Origin: Ianthella basta
Taxonomy: Eukaryota; Porifera; Demospongiae; Verongiida; Ianthellidae
Length of the DNA stretch: 64,000 bases
NCBI GenBank assembly: GCA_964019415.1
Contig: OZ025884.1
Location: 580,001-644,000 of the forward strand
Direction: 5' to 3'
Position numbers and translations under genes: made by a program. The notes beneath the pieces were generated by a model. The model worked only from the letters and a program-made list of their open reading frames with translations. It searched no databases and was not told where the DNA came from. Below are positions 16,271 through 46,758 of this stretch, piece after piece (position 1 is the stretch's first letter; each line of letters opens with the position of its first letter).

Positions 16271-19200
16271 ATGGAGGAACCCCCCATTAACCTCAGTGAG
16301 TTGGGTGGCTAGCTATTCGAATTCTATGCTGACGGGTAAAATGGGTAGCTAGCTGCATGGTTATATGGAAGTCGCTCCATATAGCTACGTATCTTTAGCT
16401 TTGGCCAACCACCAAGCACAGAAGAGGGTAGCGAATCTCTCTAAATACCATTGCACTAACTGTTCTAAGTTGTGCTCATTTCCGATTCTTTCTAGCCTCC
16501 TGAGAGTTTAGCTAAACATTCCGTTCATCTACCCCTTGAGACTTGCGGCTTTAGGTGGCGGTAGCGGCATCTTCGTATTATTATAGCATTAGACATACAC
16601 ATATAAGACATGATGGGGGAAGTTAACGAGCTTCGAGCGCAGTACTGACTTCATTCTATTGCCTATCACCCCCTTTACTCCTAATTAGATGCACCCATTA
16701 CATCACCCCCCCGCCAAACTTTTGACACTCAATGACACACACACCCTTATTTAATGTCGCGCTTCCCTAAGTTTTGTATTACAACTGATGAAGATCTACG
16801 GATCGAAACGTCTTGTATCCCACTGAAGTCAGTACTGCGCTCGAAGCTCGTTAACTTCCCCCTGCATCGTGAACACGCAGTAATGAACCTCTACAGTATC
16901 ACATATAAGACATGATGGGACATTCCATACTGTGGCACTCATTAGCACCTGCATTAGCTATGACACTGGCCAGTGATTTTGGGTGATAGTATTACAGCTA
17001 GTGTCAAACAAGGCGATACAGTGAAAACAGTGTCAAACTTGATTAACAACATCAGTGTCATTACATGTATCATGAAATTGTGTTAATTTACATATCTCTG
17101 TTCATGATGTTAAAATGATCAGTATATATGTTATCATGCTAAAAGATTGTGATGATTGTGAACTCACACCAAGCAGTACTAGTGTTCCAACAGCAGTGAT
17201 ACTGTAAAATTTTCTAAGCTATCAGGTTGTAGGGGCTGTGTAATGTTAATGAAGACTAGCTAAAGTAAAACACCTGAGTTACCTTTATTGCCCGAAGATA
17301 AGGTGCATGGAAATTTATTATGCATGTATGGCTAGTTGTGGTCTGTGTGTACTGGATCGATGTTAAGTATTTATGTAGACTACACTTTTCATACTTATCT
17401 TGTATTGTGTAGAGACAATATTGAGCAAAGAAAGAGGCAGCTTTCTTTCCGATGTTAATGCCAAAGAAATTGCCGAGGATGCAAAGTATGAATCAATAAT
17501 CCCAGATGGGGTTAAAGCTAACATCATGAAGGCCAATTCAAGAGAAGCTCAGAATCAGGCCCTTTTTGATCATTTAGTGGAAGATACCACAATTGAGGGT
17601 GTAAGAAAGTTATGCGTCATTATGACTAGAAAGGAGGGCTACACCAAAATGATCGCATTTGGTAACAAGCTTTTGAAGAAGCTGAAGACTTCAGTTGATT
17701 CACATGTGGTAGGAGTGATGCATATGCATGCATAACATAGCAGCCAGGCCATGGTAGGATGATGGGTTAGGCTTTTCCTATATATAGTAGTAGTGACAGA
17801 TCTAGGGGGGGGGGGGGCACAAGAGGGCTATTCCCACCTCCTTTGGTCCCTATCCGAATTTTCTGTTTACTTGCAAGCTTATTTGTAATTTATTTTAGAC
17901 CAGAGAACCTTAAAGAGACATTTATGTATTATACTCTACCATTTGTTGCATTACCAAACCATACATCAAGATCAAAGATGGGGGCTAATTGTTAATTTAC
18001 TTTGTTATTTCCATCCTGTGCTATGGTAACAGGTGGCTAAACACTGCATCTCATCCAATAGAAGTACATCTGGCGTGTAACATGGGTGTCGAAATCCCAT
18101 GCACATGCAGATGCATTAATAGGCACTTCGTAGGGGACAGAAAGGGTTTAGTGAGCTAGGTGAACCATGCATCTAGATCCCTTAGATGCACACTTCATCT
18201 ATAGTTCACTAGACCCTTTTGCACCTGCGAAGTGCCCCAGGTGTATCAAGAATCCTTCACATGTAATACAGTATGGATGCATGCACACGCATGGTTGTCT
18301 GGCTTACTCATTTCATTGTGGAGCTGGGAAGACCACCAATACGGCTATGATTCAACGTAGAGAAGAAACTGACCACATGTTCTCGCCCATAAAACAAGCT
18401 CTGGTACTGGCTCTGACCAGAACACAAGCATAGACTGTCTTGTGGAAAAAGCCTGTATAGCTGCTTACATATATGCATGCATGGTCATAGTATATAAGCT
18501 TATGTCACTATCTACATATATAGTACTAGCAGGGCACCCGCCTTTGGCGGGCTTCTGCTTCGGCAAGTCGGGCCCAGGCTGATTCGAAGAATCTGCGCTG
18601 TTAGTAACGAAGGGTAGCTGCTATAACGATGGCCGAGTTTAAATTCTATTGTTGGACAACAGCGACCGCCCAATAACCAGAAGTCAATGAGCAATAATTA
18701 AGAAAATGGCTGTCAGCCGGGAACGAAAAACTGAAAATTGCGGGCTATCTCATCAGGAACTGCAAGACGGGCGATTTCAGCCGGTGGAGGACACTTCTGG
18801 AGCCCCACTCTATATTCCCTGAGAGTTTGGTGGCGTTCTGTTTCGTAGTTTTTGCGCCAAAAGCGAACAAACAAACAAACGAACTGAATTGTGTATATAT
18901 AGACTGGTGTATAACAGGTATTTCGAGTTAAAAAACTCGTGGGGCGCCCGGGCGCCCCTGAACTCGAACTACTTGCTAACAACTTCCTTGTGTATGTTCA
19001 ATAGTTTAGATAGCTGGGTATGCAGCATTGCTGTTGGTCTGAAAGATACATCACGATGCCATGGATAGACTGTTGGAGTTGCAAGAGTTTCAAGTCTCCA
19101 GACCAGAAAGTCATCCAGTGAAAGCACCCCTACCAAACTGTCAAAATGCTTTGCTGATGCTTTTTGATTTACATAACATTCTGAATGAGGATGTACATGT

Positions 19201-22200: not shown

Positions 22201-25200
22201 GAAAGGTCATTATATTCAATTTTGCATAAATATACATTTGAAAGAAGTGTTTAAAACACAACACAAGGGTATGGCAATCATGAAAGTCTGCAGATGACAG
22301 CAGGTGAGTTAAAAATTAAATTGTTCTCTGGTAAAATCCAAGATTTGTGCATGTATACCACTAGAACTACATGTTAATGGTGACTTTGCATCCACTCAGA
22401 GAGAAAACTTCCTTCATCTTTTCTTGCTTTGTGGCCAAATCGGGAATAGCTCTTTGAGGAGCATTCTGAGCGGACATTTTCAATTCATCAGCCGCTTTGG
22501 ACCCAAGCTCTGGTTGGTTAGGCTTGGGATTGTTTCTGGCTTAACATCTTGCAGTGGCACTCTTTCTGACTCCACATAATTTCCTGAGGATGTGCTCAGT
22601 AGATTGGAGACCACTTTTTCTTGTCGGGCAGTGGTTCTTTTGTAGCCTCAAACTCCTTCCTTGCTAAAATGGCTAGATCTGTCCTTAATGATTTTCTCAG
22701 GAACCCCTGCAGCTAGCATATAGTCGGGTGATCCCAGTTGTTCACAGACTGTGATTTGTCTTTGATTTAGCACTCAAGACAGCCAATTGAAAGATCATCT
22801 TCAACTTTTTCTTTCAAAATGTTGTGCCCTACAGGCTGGCTGTCATACCAAGGCTTTTCTGCTGATACAGCATCTGTTGGGCATTTCTTGCACGGGTTTC
22901 CAGTAAAAGATGTCTCTCTGAAATGCAACTGCAGGCAGCTTGGAAAGATGCTTCTTCATCAGCTGAACATGGCAACGATCACCAAGATGTGGTTTTACGA
23001 ACTGAGTAACTATAGATTATTGTTCTCCAAGTTGAGTTGTCTGCTGCCACCTGGCCAATTCTTTGAACCATGCTCAGTGCATGTACACTAAGCACTCGGT
23101 CATTGCAGAAGGATTGTCTGGACTTGGCACACGTCTCAATGCAAGCTGTGATATTTTCAGATCCCTGTGCTCATCTCCACTTCTCAACATGAAATTCAAT
23201 CCATGGTAGTAAAAGACCACATTGAATAGACGTGGGTGTGTTTCAGTGTTCATGGCACCCCATGTCTCCCACAGCTTCTGTTTCTCCTCAAAGCTCATAA
23301 CTGCAGTAGATTTCTTGCTAGCTCCCACACTTTCACGATGTAGATCTCTGAATTATACATCCAGCATACGATGAAGGGACGAAAACATTTTGCTGTCCAT
23401 GATATTGAGAGCAACATGTCTCTCTTCTCGCATGTGCCTGTGTAGTCCAGACAGAATTTGCATGATTGTACAAAGTGTATAAGTTTCACCATTAACTTTT
23501 GAACTTCCTTGCAGAAAAAGGACAACCAGTGACAAATATTGTCACTGTTTCCATCTATCAGCACGTTCTCAGGGCTGTGGTCATCAGGGTAGCTTCTGTT
23601 TCATTCTGCCTACCACATTCTGAAAATGCTCATAGCCTAAGCTGTTGCCCTGGCCATGTTGTCAGGCACAAAACCTTTCTAGGCATCCTGAACATATTCT
23701 GCTAAAAAATAAAATTCTGCTATAAATTAAATCTAGGTCGCTGTAGCTGCAAAAATTTTTCCTCTTCACCTTTGGTGAGCCCTCCTCTGCCAGCTCCATC
23801 ACTTGGGATGCTGCCTTGATTCGCCACAGCAGATAGATTCAAACAAATCTCACCAAGCCAACTGCATGCATGGACTGCCTTTTTGTTCACCACCCAATGA
23901 TTGATGAATGAGATGATTAAATCGTGAAATTTGTATTTCAAGCTGTTAGTCGGCTGTAGGTCACCTTTGCACTCTTTACACAAGTAGGTAATGAATGATG
24001 TCATACTATATATTATGTATAGTACTATAGGTTGGTCCATAGCCTCAATATAAGTGCCTCGGTCATATATTTTGGCTATGGACCTCCCTACTGTACTTTT
24101 ATATTATACCTATACTTGTCCTGAAGTGTGAATTGTTTTTGCAGGTCAAGCCTAGTAGTCGTGTTTCGTCTGCTGCAACTAGTGACATGGAGGCAGAAGA
24201 CAGGACTGAGCATCAACACACAGTAGGGAATACCAGTAGGAAGAGAAGCCCAAGCAGAAGCAGTCACACATCTAAACGAACAAAGGAGCCAGACCATTCA
24301 AGTGAAGACTTACTACATAATATTATTGAAACGATTGATAAAAGATTTGAGCACTGTATTCAGTTTGTTATTGATCGTTTTACGCTGTCAGTGACAGAAC
24401 AAGCACCAGATGAGGCAATCAGATTTATTTACATCAGGATCTGTCAGTGCATTGCTAATGTCTTGCGTGACCGGTTAGTGTATATTAAGGAAGAGATAAG
24501 GGAATATTGTGAACAAGGCGTTGGGCCTAACACTTTTAAAGATGTTTCAGAAGATCAGATAGCTGCCATTGCAGGCAGTTCTACAGTTTTCTCAGTAATG
24601 CGAACACTTGGCATACTGGCTAAGTGGCTCAATACTACCTACCTAGAAGACTTTATTTTCACATCCACTGAAGATGATTCTCCCGAGAGCAAAAGAGCAA
24701 CCTATTGGCTGCATCACTATAATGCTGTTCTTGGTGGCTTCTGCTGCCATTTCCTGATGAAGAGTCTGCCTGGCAGGTTCTATGAAGAGCTGAATAACAT
24801 GGCTTTTGTTCGTATGAAGCATCATTGTATGCTCAGTGTTGTGTACAGTCATGATTACAACAATTTTACATTGGATGATCTTCGCAAAGAAACTGCTTTC
24901 GTTGGATGGCTTCTTAAGTTACCACCTAAGCATGAAATCATGAGCTTCCTTCAATGTGAAGAGGGAAATAGCACCACAGTTTACTGGGTCTTTGACATGT
25001 CTTATGTGTTGCACATCTTCACTGATGTACGTCAGCTCTTCTGGCCACTACTGGAGCACCGTGTTCTGTCACTGAAGTTGAAGGGTGTCATGAGCATTTC
25101 TTTACGAGGTCGCCATGTGTCTTACCTCATAAGGAATGCACTGCAGACACGCCAGGACCTTATCCAGAAAACAGAGGTTTGTAACGCACACATGCTGTAT

Positions 25201-28200
25201 ATATGTGCATAGTCACTGCCTCTGTGAGCACAGTCTATAGTTTGATTATATTTTTATGTGCATTGATTTGTGTAGGTATTTACTCGTCAGTTTCATGCTC
25301 TGGTTGGCCTGGGAGTATCTAAACACTCATTTGAGGTACAATTACCACAACATACTAATTGCACATGCAATGTAGCAATGTAAAGGCTCATTAATACATT
25401 ATTCAGTAATTGAACAAATATAATCAATGTTGAGCAGAATGAATGAATGCTGGTTGCTGAAACATCCTGCAATCAGTGTTCATTCATTTTGCTATGGAAT
25501 GACTACATGTATGTACATGCATTGCAAATCTTGATATTCTTCTTGGTAGAATGCTGACACTGTGAGGCGCAAAACAGTTTATAGGAAGTTTGTGCAGTCA
25601 TTTGCTACAAAGAGGAGCAAACCAGCAAGAACTAGCCAGTAAGTTTGCTTGTAGTGTATAATGACTGCATAAGTTGGAATTGGAGAGCTTGACTGATCCT
25701 ACTGCATGCCTTCCACTATCAAGAGTTCTACTGGACCAGCAAGAAGTTTCATCTGCACTGTTCAAGGTTGCCTCTGAAGGTAGGACTCTTGTAAAAGCAA
25801 GCCAAGAAGACCTGGTTGACAAGGAGAAAATACATTCAGAAGATGTACAGCAGCTTACCTCTCCCATTAGCCATCACTCATTACCTCCTCTTGAGCTGTC
25901 ACCCCCTTTTCCTGGAGGCGTGAATGTGCCTACTGCTCCTGCAGCACTGCCGAAACAGCAACTCTTGTTCCTTCCAGATCCGCCTAGTAGCAAGGTTTGT
26001 AATTTGCTTGCAATTGTTTGTTCTTATCATTGCTATAGGTCAGCAATATTATTCTATAACGTCCAGTTCATTACTGAGGTGTTGATGTTCATTTCCACTA
26101 AATTGCTGAGCTGGCATATTTCAGCATGTTACATAGTGCATAACCTTTATTTCAGATCACCACTGATGAGTGTATTGTGCCACATTCACATCAGCCACAG
26201 GAGGACAAATGGCAGGAGCCAGAAACGAAGTATGCTCCAAGGAAACAACGTCCAAAGAAAGGCAGAAAAAGAGAATCTGAACGCAAGGAGACCAAAGAGC
26301 AACTTACTGCCTTACCCATCAAACCTGCAGCACGTAAAGGTGTTGCTGAGCCAGCTCCATTTGTTGTTAAATCGGAGCCTAAAACAAGCAGAAAAGGAGA
26401 ACCTAAACTTTCTGCCCTACCTGTCAAACCTGCCACACGTAAAGTTGCTGCTGAGCAAATTCCATTATCACAGGAGACATCTGCAGCTGCACTAAAAAAA
26501 CGGACACTTCTTCCAGCCAGTGTACCATCACAACCTACAGGTACTTTAGGCAGAAGCATGCAGTGCATTATTAGCCTGGTTACATTGTTGACTTTTGTGT
26601 CTATTTACACAGGTGAAGCCTTGCAGCGCCCCACAGTGGCATTCAAGCATGAGGACCCTCATGGACCTGTGATTCCCACAAAGTACTATCAGTCTGCAAT
26701 GGTATGTATGTACGGTGCATGGAAAAGGTAATGTTAACTGAAAACTGCCAATAATTTCACCCTTTCATTGATAACGAGCGGTGAACGGTGAAACGTTAAC
26801 TGTTAACGTGTCACAGTAACCAGTTAATGCGACGGCATTGTAATGTACATACGACAGTATATTCCGGGTGTTCAGTGATAGTGAAAAGATAGGAAGATTG
26901 TCTTGTCACTCTTAACTGCAAACAGCAGATCGGGCAGCTCTATTTCAAGCGGAGGTGTCCAGTAGGAGAATCATCAAAATTCTAGCAGCAGAGGAACTCA
27001 AAGTCCCCAAGAATACTGGACTACTTTTTCCAAGTACAAGGTGTGCGGAGTTCGCGTCTGCCAACCATTATGATGTGACGTCATTTGTTGTCTACTTGAA
27101 AATGGAGGCTAAGAAGCAGTCTGTTTGAGGCTTTTGATTATGGCAGATGCTGCAAGGTCACGCCCAATGTAGCTATTGACCATCGCCAAAGCACAAATGT
27201 GTGGATATGTATGTGTGAGCCGTTAACCATTAAACGGTAACCGCTACCAGTTGACGCGTTGTGACAATCACTGCTTAGCTAGCTAAACCATCAAAACTTC
27301 ATGGATAAATTTGTCAGTACTTCGAAAACCACAAATCGGGAAACAGAATTATTGTTGCCTTTTCCATGCACTGTACCATAGTTGTTAATGGCTGGTTGTA
27401 CTTCATGCAGGCAAAGATATCAAGGCCAACACATTATGAAGCAATGGGCTTAGTGGATCCTTCTCATCCTGGACAAGGAGGAGACTTTGATGACGAAGCT
27501 CCTGTCACTCTGCTTGGGAAAACGGGCAAAGACAAGAGCAAAGGTGGAAAGCACACGTTACATTTGTGCCCACTTATAAACCTGTGTACATATGACTGTG
27601 ACATTATGTATGCCTCTAAAATGTATAGGGCGTTCTGTGGCAATAAAGGCAGAGTGCTTTGCTCTGATATGTGGGCAATGCCTGGAGCAGCTCTCAGACC
27701 AAATGAGAATGAGACCACTTGGTACATGCAAAAACAAAGGACACATTAAGGTACATATTGAGCAATTATATATTTAAAGTGAGATACGCACATCACTGTA
27801 TTCAATGTTTGCATGACTTCTTCCATTATACCACACTTAGAAAATGATTGTCCGGCCAAAGGAAGGTGTCAACGTGCCTGTCAGGAACCGCAGACTACCC
27901 AGTGGGCAAATCTGTAAAATGGAACCTTGTCCTTATTATCCCAACTGCTTCGAAGGGGACATGTGCCAGCTTGCTCATGGAAAGGAAGAGCTGGGCTACT
28001 GGAAAGGTATGACCTGCTAGCAATGTGCAGAATTTACAAAGGGGTTGGTTCTCTAATACCAGCTTCACAACAGGGTTGAAAACCTTGCCGACGTTTCGAC
28101 CAGATGCTCTGGTCTTCTTCAGGGCGAAGATCTCAATAGAATCAGAATCATCTTCGCCCTGAAGAAGACCAGAGCATCTGGTCGAAACGTTGGCAAGGTT

Positions 28201-34200: not shown

Positions 34201-37200
34201 TTCTCTGTAGGAAGACAGCCAAATAAGCAAGCCGCAGATCCAGCACCAACTACACAACAATTCAGCACTGAGGAGGTACGCTTGTACACAAGGAGGAAGG
34301 AGGAAGGCTACGACCTACCCGATCCACGATACAGGCAGTGGTTGGCAAGTGGCACTGACACAGCAGGATCAACTTCCGTGGCTGCCTCTAGCAGCCAACC
34401 AGCAGCAAACGACGACTCGCCTTCATCTCCAGAACAGTCCGACTGTCAAACTGGGCAGTGTGGGCATCCGAAGGCAAGGAAATGGGTTCAGTGCGACCAC
34501 TGTCCGCGGTGGTATCACCGTTTGTGCGCAGGGATAGCCTACAAATGCGCCAAGGAGAAGACGTACAAGTGTCCTGCTTGCACCCTGCAGTCTTGACCAT
34601 ATCTCCACAATGTACTGTAGTGACCACACATGCCAGCTTTTCTGACTGTCGCCATTTTGTAGTCTCATTCTGTTCCGATTTTTGATGACCCCAGCGCTTC
34701 CTGTTCAAGGCAGTGGTGCGACGTCGCCGATAAACCAATTCGCCCTGATCTTCTGCTGCGGTCAGGACTTGAGTGTACTCACCTGCTTAGATGGTAAGAG
34801 TGCACAAATCTTCTAGCTTCGCGATGCACAAGTCGCCGACCGAATTTAGATGACTTCCAACCGAATTTATGTTATTTCGGAAATAGCGTATTTGAAGCAA
34901 TATCTTGTGTTCGGAAAAGCGGATCCACGCCAAACGTTCTGCATCCTCTTAAATACTTCTCCTCTACATGTGCACCAAGAATCGCGGCGAAAGAAGCTGT
35001 AACGGTCGAGATCTGGTTACCGATTATTGATGACTTCCGATTATTGATGCCACGCCCTAAGTACATGCACACATGATGCAGGCATGCATTTTCCTGCTTG
35101 GCAATTACTCCAATATTAATGTTGCTGATGTGCAATTCTCACTTAGCGCGATTTTCCACCATCATTCAATTCACTTTTGCAGGCTTCTTCTAAGAGCCAG
35201 TTACATCCTGATTATAAGAACTCACTCCATTTTGTGTGCACCTCCCTGGATGAGTTTAGCCCTGATGCCAATTGGCATAATGGTACAGTCTACGAAGAAC
35301 AGATTATGAATGAGGTAGAAGCTGCTGGGGAGTGGGTGGAAAGGTTCATCGATGACAAGAAATGGCCTGAAGTGGAGTGGGGCCCTAAGGACCTCAGTAC
35401 ATTGTGTGTGGTGGTGCCGAACAAACTTGCAGTGAGTTATTTGTAGTCTACAGCTGTTCATGTAGTGATTGTTAAACTGTAATCAGACACTTGGATGGTA
35501 GCACACCTACATATGTGGATGCTGTGGTGATACGTATTCTGCACAGGAGTTGACAGTTGGGAATATGGCAGATTACTCTCAAATCGCCAACTCATCAGGA
35601 TAATTCGATGCCAAACATTTCCAGCCATGCAATGTTACAATTTTCCTGGCCTAGTGCCTAATGCAATTGCAATTGCAAAATTCTAAAATTATTGCAGTAT
35701 TTCTGAGTAGAGATCTTCTGCTACTTAGAAGGATGCATAACACAGGGACATTTGTAGAGTGTGCACACTTGCTGATACATAGATGCCAGCATAGATTCCA
35801 GTCCAGTATGCATGAATTCAGTAAACATTGGCAAAACCATGTAGTCAACACTTCACAGCTGACAGTTAACATAGTTAATGTGTGCATGCTCAATCATTGA
35901 CGAAAAATGGATATTGATTCTTTTTAGTATACCAGCTATTCAACTGTTTGACGTTGTAGGAGAGAAAGTGGAGAGAATATGCTCGATGGTATGATCGTCG
36001 GCATGGCATTGTGAGGGATGATGAAGGCTTGCGAGCTGTCACCTGCCATGTGGCATACGATATACAAGGTAGATGCTCAAACAGTGCACATGCATGGCAG
36101 CATGCAATTTTGCAAAATAGAGTGCACCATCTGTCTATTCCTCTGTCCATTCCTTTGCCCTCAGGTCGCGAGTTTCGAGCAATATTCATATGTACAAGTG
36201 AGGCTGTGGATGAAAGCTGTGCTACATTAGATCCCGTCAAGAGCCTGTGTGACCAATATGTATTCAACACTGTCATCACACGGGCAGGCTCACTGGTTGT
36301 AGCCATTGGGAACCCATTTCGGCTGATGAAGATTGAGGCAATGGGTGGACGAGGCGATGATACGATTAGTCAACGGTCAGCAGGTAAGATGAAGTGCTGG
36401 CAGACATTCGTCTTTCGTTGTCTGCAGTGTAGGTCTCTGCTCCTGACTGAAGAACTCATTCTTGCACGTCAGTCATCGCCAAAGAAAGCATCTGAGCAGA
36501 GAAAGAGTCTGTCAAACCTTGAGGATATTATGTTCAAGGAAGCACGAAGAGGTCTGTACAAGCTTTCTCAGACCCCAGATGACTTTGGGGACAGTATTGC
36601 AAAGGCGTACAATGATAGCTTTGCAAAAAAGAATCAAAAGCTGACTCTTGCGAGCAACCCCAAAGTGGGCACTTTGGAGTGGACAGCTGGAGCAGCTGGA
36701 GCAGCAGCAGACTCTCAACCTCCAGAACACAGTGAAGGACAAGCTGACAAGGATGCTATCCTTTATCGCTTGTGGCAGAACAAACGTACTTTGTGCACTG
36801 CAGTTCCAGTTGACCCTGCACACAAGAAGTCCTACAACATTGTGGGTGTGCAGAACAGAAGGGGTGCTTTCAATGGTGCCTTGGTTGAAATTGAAGTGAT
36901 CAACGTGGAATCAGGACATGCAAAAGTTGTAAATGTGCTGGAACGTGGTACAGTTCGTCCCATGATCTGTGTGGTTGACAGCTTTGACCCCACTGTGTTC
37001 ATACCTGTGGACAAGAAGAGCCCAAGATTAATGAACCTACCCCATGTTCCCAGAGAGTTGATGAGAAGTGACAGTAGTGACGATGAGTTCTCAAATGAGT
37101 TTAGGAAGAGTCAAGAACAAAAAGCACCTTACGTTGTTTGTTTCGATCCCTTATATCTTGAACCAAGAGAAGTTCCCAAGATCAGTCACATCATTCCAAA

Positions 37201-40200
37201 AGAAGTGGCTCAACATCTCTTATTCGTAGTTTGTCCAGTTCAATGGTCACCTAAGAAGCTCTTTCCATTGGGGGCTGTTGTAGCAGTCCTGCCAAAAGGG
37301 AACTCAGAGCTGTATGCCTGCAAAGTGTTGGCCATTGAGCACCAGGTTCCTGACCTTGATACATCAGAGCCTGAGCAATACAAATTGCGTGGGTTGAAAG
37401 TGCCCTTGAAGGAGGACGACCTCCATGCTGTCTACACTGATGCCATTGGCATCGTGTCTAGAGGAGGCCACTCCAGTTTGGCTCTGTCAGTGGTTGAATT
37501 GGAAGACTGCTACAAAGTTGGTATTCATGTTTGCAATGCGGCTGACTTGGTTTCTACCTCAGATGAGTTTCATGAGTACACGTTTAACCAGTGGACTGCC
37601 ATGTTTGGCCAGTGCCAGGAAGAGATAGTATACTGCGCTGCCCTCCCTCATGGTGTTGAACAGGATTTGGTGGAGGCACTGAAATTCACTTGTGATGCTG
37701 CACAAAGGAGTATTACTTTAAAGGTGAATGTGTCAGCAACTGAACATGTCAAGTTAGTAAATGCAGTTACATCCAGAGAGCTTCTGAGATCACCTCAATG
37801 CATAGAGTTGGATGTATTGGGCCAGGGTTTTGAAGAGTCCACAGTGCAATGCGACACAATGCTAGATTTGCTGAACCTTCAGAAGCAGTTGTCAGATTTG
37901 TTGCAAAGTGGTGTGCAGGAAGGAAGTGAAGACAAAGCCCTGCAGGAAAAGTTAACAGTGTTGTATGCTGTGGCTGATAAGCTATGTTTTGACCGACAGG
38001 GCCACAGAGGCTACCCTGAGCTGCAACAGACACAACAAGCGTTCCTGTACCCAGAAGCCTGGAAGATGGTCCATGAACTAGTCACCTATGCACACATGGA
38101 AGCTGCAGATCATGTTGGAGATATGCCAGTGTTCCGCCATAAGACACTCCTGCAAGCACAGCGTCCACCACTTGATGAAAGCATGAAAGGAATTGCAAAT
38201 ATAAGCTTCTATCCAATATTGAGCCAAATTCCTTTCTTTAAGAAACTTGACTTGCCTGAGCAACATGGCCGCCATGTGCACCAGCCAGTTGTTTGTACCA
38301 TTTCACACTACGAGGACCTGATTAGAGCCTTAGCCTTAAAGAGGGTCAATGTTACAAGTATTCGGCAACTCTTGATGCAGCCTTGTCGATATCCTCAGCT
38401 GGGCATCTTAGAGGCAACAATCAAGGATGCACTTCCAAGAGAGGAATATGTGGTGAAGCGGATTTCTTCAAAGCCAAAAAAAGCCCACATTCCAGTTGCT
38501 GAGCTATTTGAGAAGGCTGGTGGGAAGCATCACAGCTTGCGAGCTGTTGTGGCTCCATACACCTCCCCATTTGATAGCATATTTGATATCTATGTTCAGT
38601 ACATGCTCACCAGAGCTATTCGGGATTCAGACTTGACTTCTGCAGAGACAGTGCAGGATTTTGGCCAAAGTGAAGAAGACAAACTGCAAGAGGGAAAGGA
38701 GGTCCAATGTCTTCATAGAATGACGAGGTTGTGCAACATTGCATTGGCTAATGCCAGACACTATGAATCATCTATGACCTCTGTGGACCTGGCTGTGTAT
38801 GCCCAGCACTCCTCCATCTGTGTAGAAGCCTTTATAAAGGGAATGGAAGATGAGACTATCCAGCTCTGCTATCCTGCTTCTAGTCTTCAAGGTATTGTTT
38901 CCATACAAACGATCAAAACCAAATTTGTCACTAAGTCAGAGAAATCAAGCTGTGCAGTGTACACAGCTAAAGTGACTTGTATTGATGGTTGCTGTGTCAC
39001 AAGAGATCTCAAGTACACACCTGCAGCTCAAGGGAAGGTAGGAGGGGGTGTTTCAATGGTGGTATTTTACCATGAAGAGGACCATTTGGGCAAATATAGC
39101 ATTGTGCCAGAGTATGAGCATCCTATTGTAGATTTATCCGCTCACAGTGTAAAATTGGCAATGCAATTTGTACAGAATTCCACAGGGAAGGCTGCACTTA
39201 AACTGGTACGAGTGCTCAAGGAAGAACAGCGACAGCAGTCTAAAGACACTGCCCCAGAAAAAGATTTACCTGCACTAGAGCAAGGACCTTCCCGTGATCT
39301 CATCCAAGAAGCTCCATTTTACATTCTCAATGTGCCATTCCTTCTCCAGAGTGGCCAAGTGGTGAAGGTCTGGCTGAGAACAGATGTGAATGAGTATGTC
39401 CTTACGCCTAAGCCACAGCTGGTTGAGCTGAACCAAGATGTGCGTATTTGCCTTGAGCACAACTCGGACATTCAAGCATGCTTCACTCAGTGTGCTTTTG
39501 CTGAGTCCTCCACACTTCAGTACTCCTCCTGTGAGATATATTTCAGGATTTGGGAGGAGCTGGTTCGCGCTGAGGCTGCCACAAACAGCGTTGGGGGCAA
39601 AGAACAGTTCCTGTTCAAAGATTTTGAGTTGAAGTTTAGTGGCTTTCGTATCCCAGCAGATAGCACCAGCAGTGACTATTATTGTCCTGTAGGAGACATT
39701 TGGGCCATACTTCCAAGAGAGTTTCTGGCCAACAGGCAAGATATCCTGCCAGTTGAGCAGGGCTGCTTCGCCTGCATCCGGTTTGACGTGGAACTGAAGG
39801 AAAAGGAAGATCGTGCTCTGCTAGAGAAGCACAAGGACCTTCTCCACTCAAGTGCTGCTGACAATCACATCCGAACTGTGATGCACATGGTGGTGAATCA
39901 TGTGAAACAGGTGGAGGAAAGGGAGGAGGAGGGAGAAGAGGTCAGGATGACCTTAGAGGAGAGGGTGATTAATGCCGATCTTAAGGTAATCTTTCTCATG
40001 CACAAGATACTTGCATGAAGTTAGCATGCAGTGCATATGTAATAGCTGTCTTTTTTCTTCTGCTGCCTGTCTTCTGCATATCTCATGCATGTCACATTAT
40101 GTAGAGTATGTATAACATGATGGAATCTATAGTAAATATGCTTATCTATTGCATCAATGATCCTAACATGATTTAAACTAATTGTCAGCATGCATATATT

Positions 40201-43200
40201 ATCCCTGAATGTGTTTTATACCTTACAAGGTTGAATTCAAATTTGTTGGTCGCCACAATGCTCGTGTGTCTCCGCTAATGAAAGATGTACTGGAGAAGAA
40301 GAAGCCACGCTGTGAGATGCAGCTGTTTCCGATGTTTCTGCCAATCAAGTGAGTAGTGCAATGTACAGACAACAATTTTGATGACTTCCTGCTAATGAAA
40401 TTCACCGACATTGCTGCCCATTTTTTTCCATGCAGGAGGGTATACCACAGCCTAAGACATTTGGAGCGTAAACTACCAAGTGGTTCCATTGGAGAGAGCG
40501 TGATGCTAGGAAGTGTTGACCAACTTGTGGGACGCAATGGATACTGTAAGTGTGCAAGTGTACGTGGCTGTTATGCTACCATCAACTGGACAGTGTGTAG
40601 AAGCACTCAATCCACCTAATGCATACAACCATGCATGGGGATTCCCCTAGTTCCTTGACCTCCCCAGTAATTCCTGCATAGCTGCCATGTTTTTCCACCA
40701 CCACCATGAACATTAATTGAATTAAGATGAAACCACTTTGAACTTTTTCACTTATTTATGGTATCACAAAATATAATATACTGCCAAATATAATATAGTT
40801 CATTAAGACAGCAAATTATAAGCTATAATAAACTGGCAATGTCAATAAAATTAAAAGCTAAATAATATAGAAGAAGAGGCTCATTGCTACGTTGTTCAAT
40901 GTAAGCGAATAGTTTGTGGGCAATACGTAGCAGATTATTCAACAACTGAATGCAGGTCATTTCAGCCCGAAGGCCTTCGGCAGCTGCGTACAAAAGAGTT
41001 TTGTATACAGCTGACGAAGGCCTTCGGGCCGAAACGTCCTGCATTCAGTTTTTGAATATTCTGCTACGTATTGCCCACAAACTATTCGCTTACATAAAAG
41101 CAAAATGGTGCACTCATGTATGTGCGCCCACATTGAGCACACGTACCCTCTTGCCTTTTGTCAATGAAACTACACAGCTACAGACTGCATATCTCTTGTT
41201 GTTCATATTGCCCGCCCACTTATTGGATCAATCAATGCTGTGATTGCTGCCATGGCAGTGGGATATAAAATTTATGTGTATTTTGTACAACATGCTCCAC
41301 TTAATGACACTGTTTCTTTGGATCTACAGCACACACTCATGTTGTAGTTGCATAACTAGTGATTCTACTTTGTTGTTATCCTCCAGCCAAGTACAGCAGA
41401 GAATTGAGTGACCATAAGAAGCTCTTGAAGCTCCTGCAGGATCTTAATGTGCTGTATCACCAGGGAGAAGGTGGACGCACACTACTGAATGAAGAGCAAA
41501 TAACAGCACTGGTATTCTCTTTGATGAATAAATTCCAGCTCATTCAAGGGCCCCCAGGTGAAGCGTTTGCCATGATATGACATTGTCATGTATTGTAATT
41601 TCAGTACCCCACTTACATACATAATTGCAGTCTTGAGTTTCAACCTTTGTCTGGTGTGCATGTACGTGCAGGTACTGGGAAGAGCATCACTGGAGCCCAC
41701 ATTGCATATACCTTTGTCCTCCTGAATAAGATGAGTGCTGCTGCAGAAGCTGCAACAGCCGGTGAATTTATTGGTTCAACAATGGCAGACAGTGAAGCCG
41801 ATCTGCCTCATCTGAAGTGTGTCCTCTACTGTGGACCGTCCAATGTCTCTGTGGATGTAGTTTTGAGTAAGTTTCAATTGCTCTGCATATGTGCTGTCTC
41901 ATGCATGATTTCATTCAGCATTCTACTCTGCATTTTGCATAACATTATACGTACATTATACTACAGCTCACCTGCATCAGCTCACCAAAAGCTCTGCAAA
42001 GCGCGTTCGCATTCTCCGCATGTATGGGAAGTCAATTGAGACTCTGTACTACGAGGGCCCATACTACGACCCAGATCTCTTTGTGAAGAAAGACAAGTAT
42101 GACATTGATGAAGAACTTAGACAATATGCACTCCATGAAAAGGTGCACTCTAGAGAAGAAATCAAGAAGCAAAATGATAAGTTTGCTGAATTGCATAAGA
42201 ATGGTTTGATACCTACTGCAGAGGAAAGGTTTCAGTACCGTGAGCTGATTCGCCAAGCTGAGGAAGATGTTATCAAGAAAGGGCAGTTTGACATAGTTCT
42301 CTGCACATGTAACGAGACTGCTGGGTATAGATTTAAGAGTAACATAGCTCCTATTCAATGCATCATTGATGAAGCTGGGATGACTATGGAGCCTGAGGCG
42401 GTGGTAGCTCTTTCACAGGCTGAGCAAGTTGTGCTGATTGGTGACCACATGCAGCTGCAGCCCGTTGTGAAGAACCGCACTGCAGGTGATAATGGACTGA
42501 GGGTATCCCTTTTTGAGCGGTATGCAAATTTGTTAAAGAGGGAGTTTCCAGAAGGCTGTCCCAACTTTCAGCGGCTTATACAGCAGTACCGAATGGTGAG
42601 CAGTTACTGCTTGCATGACATTGTGAATGTGGTAAGAATTGTGCATTCTTAGTCTCAGAACTGTATCCTACTCTTATAGGTCCAGTCCATTTGTGATTTC
42701 CCATCCCATCAATTTTACGATGGACAATTGAAGACTGTTCGTGAGGAGATTAGCATGACACCCGCTGAGTTTTGGCCTCGGTCACCAGGTGCGTGTGGAA
42801 AGATAAGGAACAGGCATACTTATGTATACAAGAGGCATGTGTTCACCTACTTACATGCACGTATGCCTACTTTGAGTTGCTGCCATTGTCTTGTCTGTCA
42901 GATCCTCTAGCATTTGTTAACATTGTTGGCAAAGAGGAGGATGCTGAAAAGGAAGAAGATATGAAAACGTCCAAAATGAATGAGAAAGAAGCCCAGGCAG
43001 TTGTAAGTGTCACAGTCCCCGTCTCCTTCATATCTGTTGAAGATTGAGTATATTAGTCTTCTGCTTTTGTGAGAATTGCTATTTGTGTGTCTGTGGAAAT
43101 CATCTGTCAAAGTGATGTGATGATTATTGTGTATATATGATGCACACGTTTTATATTTAGGCATACTTTATCACTATAGGTGAATGTTGTTGAAGCCCTT

Positions 43201-46200
43201 GATAAACTGACACATTCCAAGTCCAGTATTGCAGTAATTACTCCGTACAAGGCACAGAAGAAGCTCATTGAAGGAAGGCTAAACATGAAAGCTGACTGGC
43301 GTGTCCAGACAATAGCTGATAGTCAAGGTGGGGTATACCTATTGCATACATGAACACAGTATATATAATTGGCTGTTAATGTCATTTATTGTGACTTGCC
43401 TGGGCAGATCAAAGGGATTTGGAGTACATTTTATTGCATAATCCTGCAGCGTGCTTAATGGCTGTTCTATATGGAAGTTAAAGAATGCTAGTGTGCCATA
43501 AAGTACGCTAGCAAGAAATGCAAGCACTCAAACTCCTTACTTACAATTTTAGAGTTATCCTGTCCAGTGCGGTCTACTGAGATCGCGAATTACAAAAGTT
43601 CCTTTTCACTTCTGCCGAAGTGTGACCGCCACTCTGTAAGTGAAAGCCTAGCCTGCTACCCATCCTTCGCTTCTGAAAGGCAGCAACAAGTGCTCTAACG
43701 ACAGAGGGAGGGTGCTTCGCTAGTCCATTTGGTGTCTCTTGAACTGGCAGTCCGAGCGGGCATCTTTGCACTGGCTAGCTAGCTAGCCGAAGGGACAGCA
43801 ACAATGGCAGCAAATCGTTGTTCTTCTGCAATGATAAAAAGAACAACGCGTAGCTCGTACCTGTTCTATTGAGGCTCATTGAGAGTCTTCTTGCCATCAA
43901 AGGAGAGATTTTGCCCACTGCTGCTACAGCTATTCACTTTGCTCTTTCTTCCCTTCTGACCAGAATGTGAGGCAAGTTTGAATGGAGTCAACCAATCAGA
44001 TTAGAGATGATACAATAGAATCAACCAAATAAGGCTTGCAGATGATGTAATCGGAAAATGGAAAACTGAAGGCAGACCGTCCACCCACGCAATTCACAAT
44101 AAACCACTTAAAGTTGGTTAGGAGTCCCTTATGGGATTTATGGCACAAGAGGTGAGGTTGGGTTGCCTGATACAGCACTCGGCTTCACCTCGTGCTGTAT
44201 CAGGAAACCCGAACCCTAAGTAATACTTACTGTATAGCACGCATTTCATGAGTACATCCATGAGTACTAAGTTATTCAGTTGCTGTTTTGCATTGCTTTT
44301 CAGGCAGTGAAGCAGATTTTGTAGTCCTCTCTATGGTGAGGTCCAAGCCCTTGAAGCAGATAAAGGACAAAACAGCAGTGTTTGCTGACAGAAAGTGGAG
44401 GATGGAGAATTTGGGAATTGTTGCTGACAGCCACCATCTTTGTGTGGCATTGACCAGAGCTCGGTTTGGGCTAGTCATCATTGGTGAGTTCTAATGCAGT
44501 ACTCTCTTGACACGAACTTTTCATTTAATCAGTCTTGATATACAGTAATGGCAAAGTCTATGTCTAGTAAAAACAAAGTGACTTGCGAAAGTGGACCAAA
44601 GGAATTTTATATTGCATAATCCTATAGCGTACTTTATTGTTCATAATCCTACAGCGTGCTTTATTGCTGTTCTTTAACTTCCTATAGAGTGACTTGCGTG
44701 GGCAGATCAAAGGAATTTTGAGTACATTATAATGCATAATCTTGCAGCGTGCTTTATGGCTGTTCTTTATGGAAGTTAAAGAACGCTAGGAGTGCCATAA
44801 AGAACTCGAGCAAGAAACGCAAGCACTCAAACTTCCTCCTTACGCTATTAAGCGTGGATTCTGTCCAGTGTGGTCTGACCGAGATCGCGAATTACAAAAG
44901 TTCCTTTTCATTTCTGCCGAAGTGTGACCTCGCCACTCCGTAGGTTCAAGCCTAGCCTGCTACCCATCCTTCACTTCTGAAAGGTGGCAACAAGTGCTCT
45001 AATGGCAGAGAAAGGGTGCTTCGCTAGTCCTTTTTGTGGCTCTTGAACTGGCAGTCCGAGCAGGCATCTGCGCACTAGCTAGCTAGCTAGCTAGCTAGCC
45101 AAAGGGATAGTAACAACGGCAGCAAATAGTTGTTCTTCTGCTATGATAAAAAGAACATAGCGCAGCTCAGACTTGTTCTATTAAGGCGCATTTAGAGTCT
45201 TCTTGCAAGCGAAGGAGCGTTTTCGCCCACTACTGCTACAGCTACTCGCTTCGCTCTATACCTTCCTTCTGACCAGAATGCGAGGCAAGTTTGAATGGAG
45301 TCAGCCAATCGGATTACAGATGACGCAATAGAATCACCCAAATATGGCTTGCAGATGACGCAATTGGAAAATGGAAGACTGAAGGCCAACCGTCCGCCTG
45401 CGCAAGTCACTCTATATTATTTAAAGTGGGCTAGGAGTGCTTTACGCGATTTATGGCACTCGGTGTGGGGGTCTTGTTGCGTCGTCAGCAACTCGACCCC
45501 CACACCTCGGGCCATAAATCGCGTAAAGCACTCCTAGCCCACTTTAAGTAACATTTAAGTAACACTAGGGTGCTAAAAAGGGTGCTAACAGGAAACACAT
45601 GCTCTCTGACGCCTTCCTTACACTTTAAAGTGTAGATCCTGTGGTCTGTATACTAAGATGGCAAATTTTGAAAGTTCATCTTCGTTTCTGCTGAAGTGGA
45701 GCTACCTCGCTGCTCTGTTAAGTTAAAGTCTAGCCTGTTAACCATCCTCCGCTTCAGAAAGGGCTGCAACAAGTGCTCTATAATGGGACTGTAGAGGGAG
45801 GGCACTTTGCTAGTCCCCTTTTGCGTCTCTTGAATTCACCATCCAAGTGGGTGTTTTCACATTAGCTAGCTAGCCAAAGGCACAGCAACCACGGCAGCAA
45901 ATGCTTGTTCTTCCTCGGTGACTAAAAACCAAAGTGCTGCTTTGGTGTTAAGGTTGATTGAAAGACTTCACGCCAGCAGAGGAGCGTTTTTGCCCACTGC
46001 TGCTACAGCTGCTTGCTTTGTCCTTCCTTCCTCCTGATCAGAATGTGTTGTAAGTTTGAAAGAAATCAACCAATTGGATTGCAGATGATGTGATGGAATC
46101 AACCAAATAAGGCTGGCAGATGATGCAATTGGAAAATGGAAGACTAACAGGCCAACCGTCAGTCCACACAAGTCATACCTTACGTGATCTTGGGCAATGG

Positions 46201-46758
46201 GCGTTGGGTATCGTTGTGTGATAAAGCACTCGGCTTTACCCTGTGCTTTATCAACAACTCGACCCCCACACCGCGAACCATAAACTGTGTTAGACACTCC
46301 TAGCCCACTTTAATTAAAGTAACAATAATTTTATATATCAGTGTGTGAGTATATGTGTGTATATACGTACCATAGTGTTCTATATTCATTTGCCTATATA
46401 TGTTTAAATATGGTGCATGTTTGATGTTTGTGTCTCCCCCATCACAGGCAACAAAACCCTGCTCTCATATAATCATGTATGGAATGAGCTGATACGTCAC
46501 TACACAGAGTGCAGGTATGTTGTTGATGAACAGTGGGCCGAAAGAGCGCTGGAAAAAGCTAAACTGGTATCCCGGAAGCCACCACCCCCTCCACCCAGCA
46601 GAAAGGACAAGCCCACTCCCAGGCAGCAAGGTGACAAAGTAGCAGAAATGATTTCAGAGAATCTAAAAGCTCTTGTTAAGTTTGAGGAAGAAGGTACTCG
46701 AAGAAAGCCACAAATGCTGCAAAAGTTGCGGAAACAGAAGGTTTCTGCAGCATCATGA
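16271..46758 (+). CDS. HELZ2-like: Gene B: CARD-like/HELZ2-like giant helicase, complete, 29 exons, about 3,558 aa
   Basis: Exons: 16271-16295, 17413-17708, 24145-25176, 25276-25335, 25550-25638, 25724-25994, 26156-26540, 26613-26701, 27411-27543, 27629-27750, 27841-28006, 28380-28699, 28772-28819, 29979-30115, 30197-31250, 31508-31705, 35183-35431, 35960-36068, 36165-39985, 40230-40348, 40436-40545, 41387-41557, 41672-41866, 41967-42595, 42680-42788, 42902-43002, 43180-43327, 44304-44483, 46448-46758. All are GT-AG and phase-compatible; total 10,677 nt. Domain order: CARD-like (aa 15-105), conserved region X (140-451), linker, zinc block (795-995), SF1 helicase 1 (1058-1650), RNB-like (about 1900-2480), SF1 helicase 2 (2950-3460), basic tail. 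The helicase-RNB-helicase half is HELZ2, an interferon-induced factor in vertebrates. Exon 6 could instead end at 25766 (76 codons shorter, still in frame). Exon 1 is chosen because the phase-1 ATG exon after the conserved promoter fits exon 2, as in paralogues A and C. Confidence 0.87.
16618..16900 (+). mobile_element. Element with one hammerhead-like motif and a 19-bp target duplication
   Basis: The direct repeat ACATATAAGACATGATGGG lies at 16599-16617 and 16901-16919. Inside, inverted arms of about 45 bp (GGGGGAAGTTAACGAGCTTC and its complement) enclose a single plus-strand motif at 16785-16812: CTGATGA, stem GATC/GATC, GAAACGTC. It is in intron 1 of gene B. A long TSD with internal ribozyme-like sequence fits Penelope-like or related retroelements. 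Confidence 0.75.
17413..17708 (+). other. Gene B exon 2: CARD-like death-fold domain
   Basis: The exon encodes about 98 residues: FLSDVNAKEIAEDA, then LFDHLVEDTTIEGVRKLC, then GYTKMIAFGNKLLKKLK. Six predicted amphipathic helices and the hydrophobic spacing (L..V.A..IA..A, I.P..V...I, LF.HL, L..LC.IM, GY..M..FG..LL) fit the death-fold superfamily, nearest to CARD. Gene A (8784-8516) and gene C (58079-58347) have the same exon. Such domains self-associate to assemble signalling complexes. CARD rather than DEATH or DED is my best guess, not certain. Confidence 0.65.
18121..18235. mobile_element. Small foldback element in intron 2 of gene B
   Basis: GGCACTTCG at the left pairs with CGAAGTGCC at the right. 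AGGGTTTAGTGA pairs imperfectly with TTCACTAGACCCT further in. It is non-coding. Intron 2 (17709-24144) also holds a G-run at 17806-17817 and the hairpin family at 18917-18980. Confidence 0.5.
19738..21230 (-). mobile_element. Decayed Crypton-like (DUF3504 tyrosine recombinase) element, copy 1
   Basis: Minus-strand peptides NGLNFNFRSGDEHRVLNMSQ (21060-20960) and, in other frames, GDRCHVQLMKKHLSKLP, IFYWKP, then KPWYDSQPVGHNVM (20770-20660) match the order of conserved blocks in Crypton/KCTD1-type recombinases (RSGDEHR ... CPV.....KLP ... FY..P ... WY.....G.N). Frame changes between blocks show it is broken. It lies in intron 2 of gene B. A second copy of the whole sequence follows in the same orientation. 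Confidence 0.65.
21822..23350 (-). mobile_element. Decayed Crypton-like element, copy 2 (direct repeat of copy 1)
   Basis: From AGGAGTGCGCAAAAATTCAG onward it repeats copy 1 at high identity with small indels. The block FYYHGLNFMLRSGDEHRDLK (23220-23160) is better preserved than in copy 1, but the ORF is still interrupted. The pair sit about 2.1 kb apart as a tandem duplication. Between 23350 and 24144 I see no gene. Confidence 0.65.
24145..25176 (+). other. Gene B exon 3: uncharacterised conserved region X (about 310 aa)
   Basis: A serine/lysine-rich N-terminal segment (NTSRKRSPSRSSHTSKRTK, NLS-like) precedes a helix-rich region. Its most conserved part among A, B and C is TVYW, then FWPLLEHRVLSLKLKGV, then LRGRHVSYLIRNALQTRQDL. 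I recognise no named domain. The following 60- and 89-nt exons (VFTRQFHALVGLGVS; NADTVRRKTVYRKFVQS) extend it and are nearly identical in gene C, so it may be a compact module of about 360 residues. Confidence 0.7.
26711..27374. mobile_element. TIR element in intron 8 of gene B
   Basis: The ends GTGCATGGAAAAGGTAA (left) and TTGCCTTTTCCATGCAC (right) are inverted repeats flanked by GTAC/TGTA-like bases. Internal inverted blocks built on GTTAACCGTT and AACGGTAACC also pair. It is non-coding and accounts for nearly the whole intron. Confidence 0.65.
27629..28699 (+). other. Gene B exons 10-12: cysteine-rich CCCH zinc-finger block
   Basis: Exon 10 has FALICGQCLEQL and PLGTCKNKGH. Exon 11 has a CCCH finger with spacing C-x5-C-x5-C-x3-H (Cys864, Cys870, Cys876, His880) followed by the ELGYW motif typical of ZC3H7/HELZ2 fingers. 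Exon 12 has LCLDCRCQAAE and a second finger, ICDDRTECSSPHH followed by LNQW. Gene A has all three exons at 1305-98. CCCH fingers of this type usually bind RNA. Part of the HHR-like foldback element lies in the intron between exons 11 and 12. Confidence 0.8.
28041..28275. mobile_element. Foldback retroelement with hammerhead-like motifs, copy 2 (13-bp TSD)
   Basis: This is the same element as at 14806 and is flanked by CAGAATTTACAAA at 28028-28040 and 28276-28288. The minus-arm motif lies at 28090-28122. The plus-arm motif at 28159-28191 ends in GTT instead of GTC. It is in intron 11 of gene B. Confidence 0.82.
29488..29938 (+). mobile_element. Repeat element containing a 21-bp tandem array, copy 1
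   Basis: Ends share TCATGCC/GGCATGA. At 29646-29757 a roughly 21-bp unit (AAATCG-C-TCATCGAACG type) repeats five times with variation. A poly-G run (29912-29924) lies near the right end. The inverted second copy lies at 56185-56560. It is in intron 13 of gene B. Confidence 0.6.
31709..35057 (+). mobile_element. pogo/Tigger-like transposon with TIRs of about 380 bp, inside gene B intron 16
   Basis: Left arm 31709-32088 reappears reverse-complemented at 34678-35057 at very high identity, for example GGCATCAATAATCGGAAGTC at the outer end. TA duplications flank it (31707-31708, 35058-35059). It holds one apparently intact two-exon transposase. Near-identical arms and an intact gene suggest a recent insertion. 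It lies exactly in the splice donor after exon 16. Confidence 0.9.
32375..34596 (+). CDS. pogo/Tigger-like DDE transposase with C-terminal PHD finger (about 707 aa, two exons)
   Basis: Exons 32375-34112 and 34211-34596 join in frame (phase 1, donor GTACAG, acceptor TCTCTGTAG). Features in order: pipsqueak-type helix-turn-helix (AAAEEYGVPKSTLYDKVTGK), CENP-B-like DNA-binding region, DDE core (FNCDETGMP, LLLLDGHSSH, LQPLDNGIF), a charged coiled-coil (KKEEKKRMKEEEKERKRIE), and a PHD-like finger (CGHPKARKWVQCDHCPRWYH ... CPAC). The protein has no stops or frameshifts. It is distinct from the transposase at 10184 but shares the added PHD finger. Start: first ATG of the frame; a later start at 32551 is possible. 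Confidence 0.88.
36165..39985 (+). other. Gene B exon 19: RNB-like domain, catalytic residues replaced
   Basis: This 3.8-kb exon follows helicase 1. FIPVDKKSPRLMNLPHVP, LALSVVELEDCYKVGIHVCN and APYTSPFDSIFDIYVQYML align with successive conserved stretches of RNB (RNase II/R) domains, as in HELZ2. In active RNBs the first stretch reads like IDP....D.DDALS. Here the equivalent (aa 2022-2037) is GIVSRGGHSSLALSV, with no aspartates. TSP is kept, but the RRY-type arginines are changed. The fold may be retained for RNA binding without exonuclease activity. Alignment is by eye. Confidence 0.65.
40897..41096 (+). mobile_element. Foldback element with hammerhead-like motif in intron 21 of gene B
   Basis: Arms of about 85 bp pair (GTAAGCGAATAGTTTGTGGG and its complement). 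The plus arm has CTGACGA, a GGCC-TTCG-GGCC stem and GAAACGTC at 41011-41038. The left-arm copy is degenerate (GCCGA, GAAATGAC). I saw no clear target duplication. Confidence 0.65.
41387..46758 (+). other. Gene B SF1 helicase 2 and C-terminal tail (exons 22-29)
   Basis: Walker A GPPGTGKS is split by an intron between exons 22 and 23 (aa 2999-3006). Motif II is IIDEAGM (Asp3201, Glu3202). Motif III is LIGDHMQLQPVV, followed by SLFERY. Motif IV is QQYRM and VQSICDFPSHQFYDG. Motif V is GSEADFVVLSMVRS and motif VI is VALTRARFGLVIIG. The DEAGM variant and SLFERY are typical of the second HELZ2 helicase. The last exon ends in a proline/lysine-rich tail (KPPPPPPSRKDK). Confidence 0.88.
43394..46325. 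repeat. Three diverged direct repeats of about 0.75-0.9 kb in introns 27 and 28 of gene B
   Basis: Copies at about 43394-44215, 44691-45560 and 45590-46325 share blocks such as CTTGC-TGGGCAGATCAAAGG (not found in copy 3), the GCTAGCTAGCTAGCC run, CCCACTGCTGCTACAGCT and the segment before GCAAGTTTGAATGGAGTC. Copy 2 ends in a nearly perfect palindrome (45419-45548) around GACCCCCACAC; copies 1 and 3 end in related loops (GCACTCGGCTT). No coding content. Exon 28 (44304-44483) lies between copies 1 and 2. Confidence 0.7.

Follow-up and report, generated by a model that had tools for sequence, protein, structure and literature searches.

A putative CARD-HELZ2 helicase gene and its tandem relatives in the sponge Ianthella basta

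RIG-I-like receptors join a CARD to an RNA helicase. The locus described here raises the question of whether the same layout was built in a sponge from an unrelated, HELZ2-type helicase, within one gene, and what such a protein might do. The window is the 64,000-nt stretch C17:580001-644000 (contig OZ025884.1, here C17) of the Ianthella basta assembly (209 Mb, 96 contigs). Its gene of interest, W, was compared with the paralogs on the same contig and with other loci of the genome.

Exon model and domains of the window gene

Gene W was rebuilt as 28 exons on the forward strand, from the ATG at nt 16271 to the TGA at nt 46758, giving 10,857 nt and 3,618 aa (Table 1). Coding blocks were marked by translated comparison with neighbouring stretches, and splice sites were picked to fit the block ends of the paralogs. 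This curated chain has no internal stops, GT-AG borders at 27 of 27 introns and continuous phases. It agrees closely with the preliminary description of the locus, which had given 29 exons and 10,677 nt; the ATG-to-TGA span and the phase consistency are retained. A homology-driven dynamic programme returned 32 exons (10,635 nt) under a strict donor filter and 56 exons (13,059 nt), ending at a different stop, under relaxed filters. Because its output shifts with the filters, the splice choices were taken from paralog comparison and inspection, and unconstrained homology-scored prediction, which over-predicts exons at relaxed splice thresholds, was dropped. The acceptor of exon 6 is weak, and the basis for linker exons 6-8 is almost wholly open frame and splice sites, with little or no support from paralogs.

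Several other features were seen in or near the gene. A DDE_1 transposase with HTH_psq (E 3.3e-25, window 32363-34210, + strand), presumably Tigger/pogo-like, lies in the intron between exons 15 and 16, and 3' of it, in a different frame, is a PHD finger (PF00628, 24.1 bits against a cut-off of 24, window 34147-34593, + strand). Upstream of W there is a perfect inverted repeat of 94 nt around a 6-nt loop (window 14806-14999), and its first intron contains one of 44 nt (95%, window 16610-16867).

Table 1. Features of gene W and of neighbouring copies (window positions unless marked C17)
Feature	Position	Strand	Basis
Exon-3-domain exon, inverted copy D	7279..8214	-	paralog match
CARD exon, inverted copy D	8516..8784	-	paralog match
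W exon 1, start codon, MEEPPINL, donor GTGAGT, phase 1 out	16271..16295	+	curated model; two other CARD exons preceded by a comparable start exon
W exon 2, CARD	17413..17708	+	predicted fold, paralog exons
W exon 3, Ser/Arg-rich stretch and ~270-aa domain (possible TRADD-N-like C-terminal half)	24145..25176	+	paralog exons
W exon 4, conserved 20-aa exon 3' of the exon-3 domain	25276..25335	+	paralog comparison
W exons 5-8, disordered linker (span 25550..26701)	25550-25638, 25688-25994, 26156-26540, 26613-26701	+	curated model
W exons 9-12, Cys/His clusters, zinc-finger-like by eye (span 27411..28819)	27411-27543, 27629-27750, 27841-28006, 28380-28819	+	
W exons 13-17, SF1 helicase 1 (span 29979..36068)	29979-30115, 30197-31250, 31508-31705, 35147-35431, 35960-36068	+	
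W exon 18, end of helicase 1 (GREF...TRA) and OB/RNB region without catalytic aspartates	36165..39985	+	
W exons 19-23, part of SF1 helicase 2 and C-terminus (exons 19-28, span 40230..46758)	40230-40348, 40436-40545, 41387-41557, 41672-41866, 41967-42631	+	
W exons 24-28, part of SF1 helicase 2 and C-terminus	42680-42788, 42902-43002, 43180-43327, 44304-44483, 46448-46758	+	
Candidate start exon MAKEPPLDL, next copy N	52790..52817	+	upstream-stretch comparison
CARD exon, next copy N	58079..58347	+	paralog match
Exon-3-domain exon, next copy N	59731..60738	+	paralog match
CARD exons of copies E-H	C17:697680-697985, 716039-716344, 735314-735586; C17:694294-694566	+ (first three); - (last)	5'-flank comparison, PF16739

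A CARD fold is predicted for exon 2. Its AlphaFold2 model (mean pLDDT 76.2, from an alignment of three window-derived rows) consists of six helices, and a Foldseek comparison with the PDB placed CARDs at nine of the best 10 matches, the tenth being a designed protein. CARD8, NLRP1 and APAF1 ranked first, and caspase-1/ASC and NLRC4 were also among the top CARD matches (probability 0.99-1.00 and TM up to 0.77, but weak E values, the best 0.054 and none at or below 0.001). The exon had already been called CARD-like from its sequence, and the model bears this out. Pfam returned no CARD match for W exon 2 alone. PF00619 matched five of 22 exons of this CARD family (best E 0.011), and a profile of the 22 exons found no CARD among PDB sequences, its best match (E 0.051) being an unrelated protein. 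At least 150 related CARD exons are present in the genome (150 of 715 candidates were scored and all matched). At least nine of these 150 sit less than 6 kb (1.4-3 kb) upstream of a NACHT domain, among the 102 NACHT matches listed, which suggests that this CARD type is part of the immune CARD repertoire of the animal. The CARD-NACHT receptors of the genome share related CARD exons with W, which carries helicase and RNB regions in place of NACHT and repeats.

The domain encoded by exon 3 (~270-340 aa) has 57 matches in the genome at E values up to 1. Neither Pfam nor PDB sequences returned a notable match for it, and Pfam detected no TRADD domain over eight copies. The models PF20694 and PF13820 (TRADD-like_N, NCOA6_TRADD-N) had no match in the whole genome, a weak result for PF13820 since it was silent in control genomes too. 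AlphaFold2 modelled it poorly overall (pLDDT 61): the helical part at about residues 91-190 is confident, and a weaker C-terminal part shows a beta-alpha-beta-beta-alpha-beta order at residues 227-319 (pLDDT mostly 61-74). PDB matches of the model are weak (best E 0.036) and include several ferredoxin-like proteins. TRADD-N is the leading guess for this domain, because units of a death fold and TRADD-N are described from sponges in the text of PMC8195603, but the family models do not confirm it. Of the 57 matches, 10 have an SF1 helicase match on their strand no more than 30 kb downstream, which exceeds chance. The corresponding mean was 0.63 and the maximum four in 2000 random placements, made with all 89 helicase matches and with contigs other than C5 and C17 taken as 8 Mb; the count was also 10 when 60 of the 89 helicase matches were used.

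Two SF1 (Upf1-like) helicase cores follow in W (Pfam AAA_11, E 9e-18 and 2.6e-19), and their motifs GPFGAGKT, DEGA, GPPGTGKS, DEAG and ALTRA appear intact by eye. Helicase 1 alone had no match to PDB sequences at 0.001. The region between the helicases is RNB-like: a five-copy profile matched DIS3L2 (E 3.7e-12), and PF00773 (RNB; best 2.5e-8) and PF25049 (OB_HELZ2; best 3.9e-4) were each found in three of the five copies scanned, while the RNB/OB region of W alone matches weakly (OB_Dis3, 0.038). Where DIS3L2 has its catalytic site, IDPSTARDLDDAL (8e29 row) or DLNDAL (8e27 row), W reads IVSRGGHSSLAL. The catalytic DxDD is absent from the RNB region of all nine copies aligned (of the 14 in the array described below); a single Asp remains near the first catalytic position in copies E, F and G. 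Judged from these alignments, the RNB region is probably catalytically dead, and the W protein is probably a sensor or scaffold and not a nuclease. The locus had been described as a complete HELZ2-type dual helicase and as a possible antiviral effector. The layout is indeed complete, with two AAA_11 cores and an RNB-like region, but the missing aspartates weaken the nuclease-effector half of that proposal. Cys/His clusters in exons 10-11 were seen by eye as zinc fingers; Pfam found no zinc finger in exons 9-12. The RNB exon of copy B (C17:510194-513877) contains one in-frame stop and may represent a pseudogene or an assembly error.

A tandem array, and one gene or two

Fourteen HELZ2-like copies, defined by AAA_11 matches that were paired by position, occupy C17:0.30-0.77 Mb. 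A CARD exon is found upstream on the same strand in 12 of them, and is of the window type in eight (C17: 356231, 386678, 433350, 482826, 526171, 588516, 597394 and 638063) and of a different type in four. The exon-3 domain occurs in nine copies, namely the eight with a window-type CARD and copy C, for which no CARD was found; neither CARD nor exon-3 domain was found for the copy at C17:309-319 kb. CARD, exon-3 domain and HELZ2 are collinear on one strand in eight copies, W included, and in copies B and D the whole unit is inverted. A stop falls inside two of the nine array exon-3-domain matches (443399 and copy C), that of copy C being past the donor.

Copies E-H carry the different CARD exon (CARD_2/CARD class) upstream, without the exon-3 domain. 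These exons have an ATG at their start, as read by eye. The CARD of copy E exceeds both Pfam cut-offs (PF00619, 32.2 bits against 23.9, E 1.1e-7; PF16739, 28.8 against 28.2), and those of G, F and H score below the CARD_2 (PF16739) cut-off, at 25.4, 23.6 and 22.9 bits. We take CARD_2 to be the CARD class of RIG-I and MDA5. The exit phase of the exon is 1 in E and 0 in F, G and H.

All measured dN/dS values are below 1. They were 0.16 (F-G), 0.43 (B-D), 0.64 (D-N) and 0.90 (B-N) for the CARD, where two pairs with W were saturated; 0.29 (W-N), 0.33 (B-D) and 0.67 (A-C) for the exon-3 domain; and 0.25 and 0.29 for RNB. The values for F-G and B-D (CARD), W-N (exon-3 domain) and RNB point to constraint on the codons and favour the reading proposed below, whereas three values within 0.6-0.9 place some pairs near neutral and speak against it.

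The splice phases recur between copies. The CARD exon is entered in phase 1 in W, A, B, D and N (read by eye) and left in phase 0 in W, B, D and N; phase 0 is possible in A but not certain. For the exon-3-domain exon, all six array copies read (W, A, B, C, D and N) show a phase-0 entry and, following CAG or GAG, a donor at its end. Exon 4 comes next in W, A, C and N, as it does at C5:1.506 Mb, where its phases are the same; in B and D the matches to exon 4 are weaker (E 0.03 and 0.007) and further downstream. Start exons resembling the MEEPPINL exon of W in phase and donor (GTGAGT) were found in two of 11 distinct other upstream stretches, MAKEPPLDL and MAKESPLDL, located before the CARDs of copy N and of C17:433350. 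Copies B and D have other short phase-1 start candidates, MADSL and MAESF.

These data bear on whether the locus might instead hold two adjacent genes that were duplicated together, one for the CARD and exon-3 domain and a separate HELZ2-like gene. Such a pair would find a precedent at C5:1505779-1507500, where CARD, exon-3 domain and exon 4 occur with the same splice phases far from SF1 helicase matches; on C5 the nearest listed helicase match is at 10.2 Mb, though the sequence beyond the unit reads N. Against it, the exon-3-domain exon closes in a donor and not a stop in each of the six array copies and also at C5, and continues, in W, A, C and N as well as at C5, into exon 4, from where the W model reaches the finger exons without a break in phase. 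Copies A and C share conserved small linker exons, with phases judged by eye, that span the ~1 kb (in A; C is similar) from the exon-3 domain to the zinc-finger exon and leave little room for a gene boundary. In copy G the 303-nt CARD exon (phase 0 out) joins a linker exon in phase over an intron of only 88 bp. Given the recurring phases, exon 4, the small exons of A and C and the start exons, two separate genes seem improbable, and this reading was set aside. The single-gene reading, a CARD-HELZ2 fusion as proposed in the preliminary description, is well supported within the genome, by the phase-continuous W model and the collinear order that recurs in its paralogs.

Relation to known proteins

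To our knowledge, vertebrate HELZ2 has no death fold. W shares with it the order of zinc-finger-like region, SF1 helicase 1, OB/RNB and SF1 helicase 2, and adds an N-terminal CARD and the exon-3 domain. The two also differ in the RNB region, which lacks the catalytic aspartates in W, in contrast to the D1346/D1354/D1355 of the RNA-degrading human HELZ2 described in PMC9839780. According to the same text, the human protein is interferon-stimulated and reduces LINE-1 RNA, an effect for which helicase mutations matter more than RNase mutations. In a sponge transcriptome study, the expression of two HELZ2 genes is reported as lower following exposure to symbionts (PMC11229196).

An N-terminal CARD joined to an RNA helicase is also the layout of RIG-I and MDA5. 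W differs from these in having an SF1 dual helicase with RNB and not one SF2 helicase with a C-terminal RD, and in having one CARD exon found and not two. Identification of W as an RLR was rejected on the grounds that its helicases are SF1 (AAA_11 being an SF1 model) and that it has no RD. The genome has three RIG-I_C-RD matches, only at C14:5215366-5227961, representing its RLR-type genes. Their position on another contig argues that CARD-HELZ2 is not a modified RLR, and the animal may have both systems. The comparison within the genome supports well the earlier suggestion of an RLR-like layout on an unrelated, HELZ2-type SF1 helicase.

A third point of comparison is provided by the death-fold and TRADD-N proteins treated in PMC8195603. 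As described there, cnidarians and brachiopods have death-fold/TRADD-N fusions to Mov10, DDX60 and RLR-like helicases, and the sponge partners are ankyrin, SH3-LRR, kinase, caspase, PNPase and HD. With death-fold fusions to RNA helicases in print, the idea of a CARD-HELZ2 protein is not wholly new; HELZ, SF1 and Upf1 are absent from the main text of that paper. W resembles these proteins in its series of death fold, alpha/beta domain, flexible linker and variable C-terminus, and differs in that its exon-3 domain does not match the Pfam TRADD-N families. No CARD-HELZ2 fusion was found among the literature matches listed for the topics HELZ2, sponge NLR/RLR and CARD-helicase, a search of texts without their supplements.

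Proposed function and rival explanations

The reading that we hold, with somewhat better than even confidence, is that W encodes one protein made up of CARD, exon-3 domain, flexible linker, zinc-finger-like region, SF1 helicase 1, pseudo-RNB and SF1 helicase 2, that it belongs to a tandem family, and that it couples RNA binding through CARD assembly to defence. The sequence itself gives the layout, its repetition among the paralogs, the helicase motifs and the missing RNB catalytic residues; an RNA ligand, signalling by the CARD and an immune role are suggested by analogy with the families of its domains. The helicases, together with an RNB region that probably lacks catalysis, would bind RNA; the CARD would then nucleate homotypic assembly with other CARD proteins of the animal (NLRs, adaptors or caspases), and this assembly would start a defence or cell-death response. 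The wider proposal is held more tentatively, at slightly less than an even chance: that 12 or more HELZ2-like genes with a CARD form a family of RNA sensors of RIG-I-independent origin, in which the HELZ2 nuclease lost catalysis and became an RNA-binding module and CARD signalling has been placed on an SF1 helicase in two architectures, with expansion in the lineage.

Two other explanations accept the fusion and differ on its role, and each is considered unlikely, to about the same degree. The protein could act as an effector, a HELZ2-like restriction factor whose helicases displace invading RNA or help to destroy it directly, with the CARD serving only to localise or cluster it. CARDs are typically signalling domains, which argues against so small a part for this one, and with the RNB catalytic residues missing from every aligned copy, RNA degradation would need a partner nuclease. 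In favour, motifs are kept in both W helicases, and the LINE-1 RNA-lowering effect of human HELZ2 needs helicase activity more than RNase (PMC9839780). Alternatively, CARD and exon-3 domain could be a rapidly shuffled constant unit, with HELZ2 as one of many variable C-termini and no special role in sensing. This would fit the 357 TRADD-N proteins that PMC8195603 describes from Amphimedon, most types of which have one to three death-fold domains before TRADD-N and variable C-termini. It would also fit the many related CARD exons, some of them close upstream of listed NACHT matches, and the 47 of 57 exon-3-domain matches for which the next 30 kb downstream contain no helicase match. The Pfam TRADD-N models, however, do not match the exon-3 domain, and the four HELZ2 copies E-H carry a CARD without it, so that the link between CARD and HELZ2 is not solely a product of such a unit.

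If the CARD-HELZ2 protein does sense RNA, then CARD-coupled RNA sensing arose on a helicase scaffold unrelated to that of RIG-I, and HELZ2, an interferon-induced RNA factor of vertebrates, would be linked to a signalling role. The tandem array has the appearance of a fast-evolving immune family. Lost RNB catalysis together with retained helicase motifs makes a clear prediction, and poses the question of whether RNA engagement of the HELZ2 type drives CARD assembly.

SF1 helicases also occur elsewhere in the genome. Those at C14:3084441-3142707 form a cluster in long open frames; L002 ends in Cys-rich repeats and is presumably ZNFX1-like. One member of the C14 cluster has an exon-3-domain match ~9 kb upstream (3101650).
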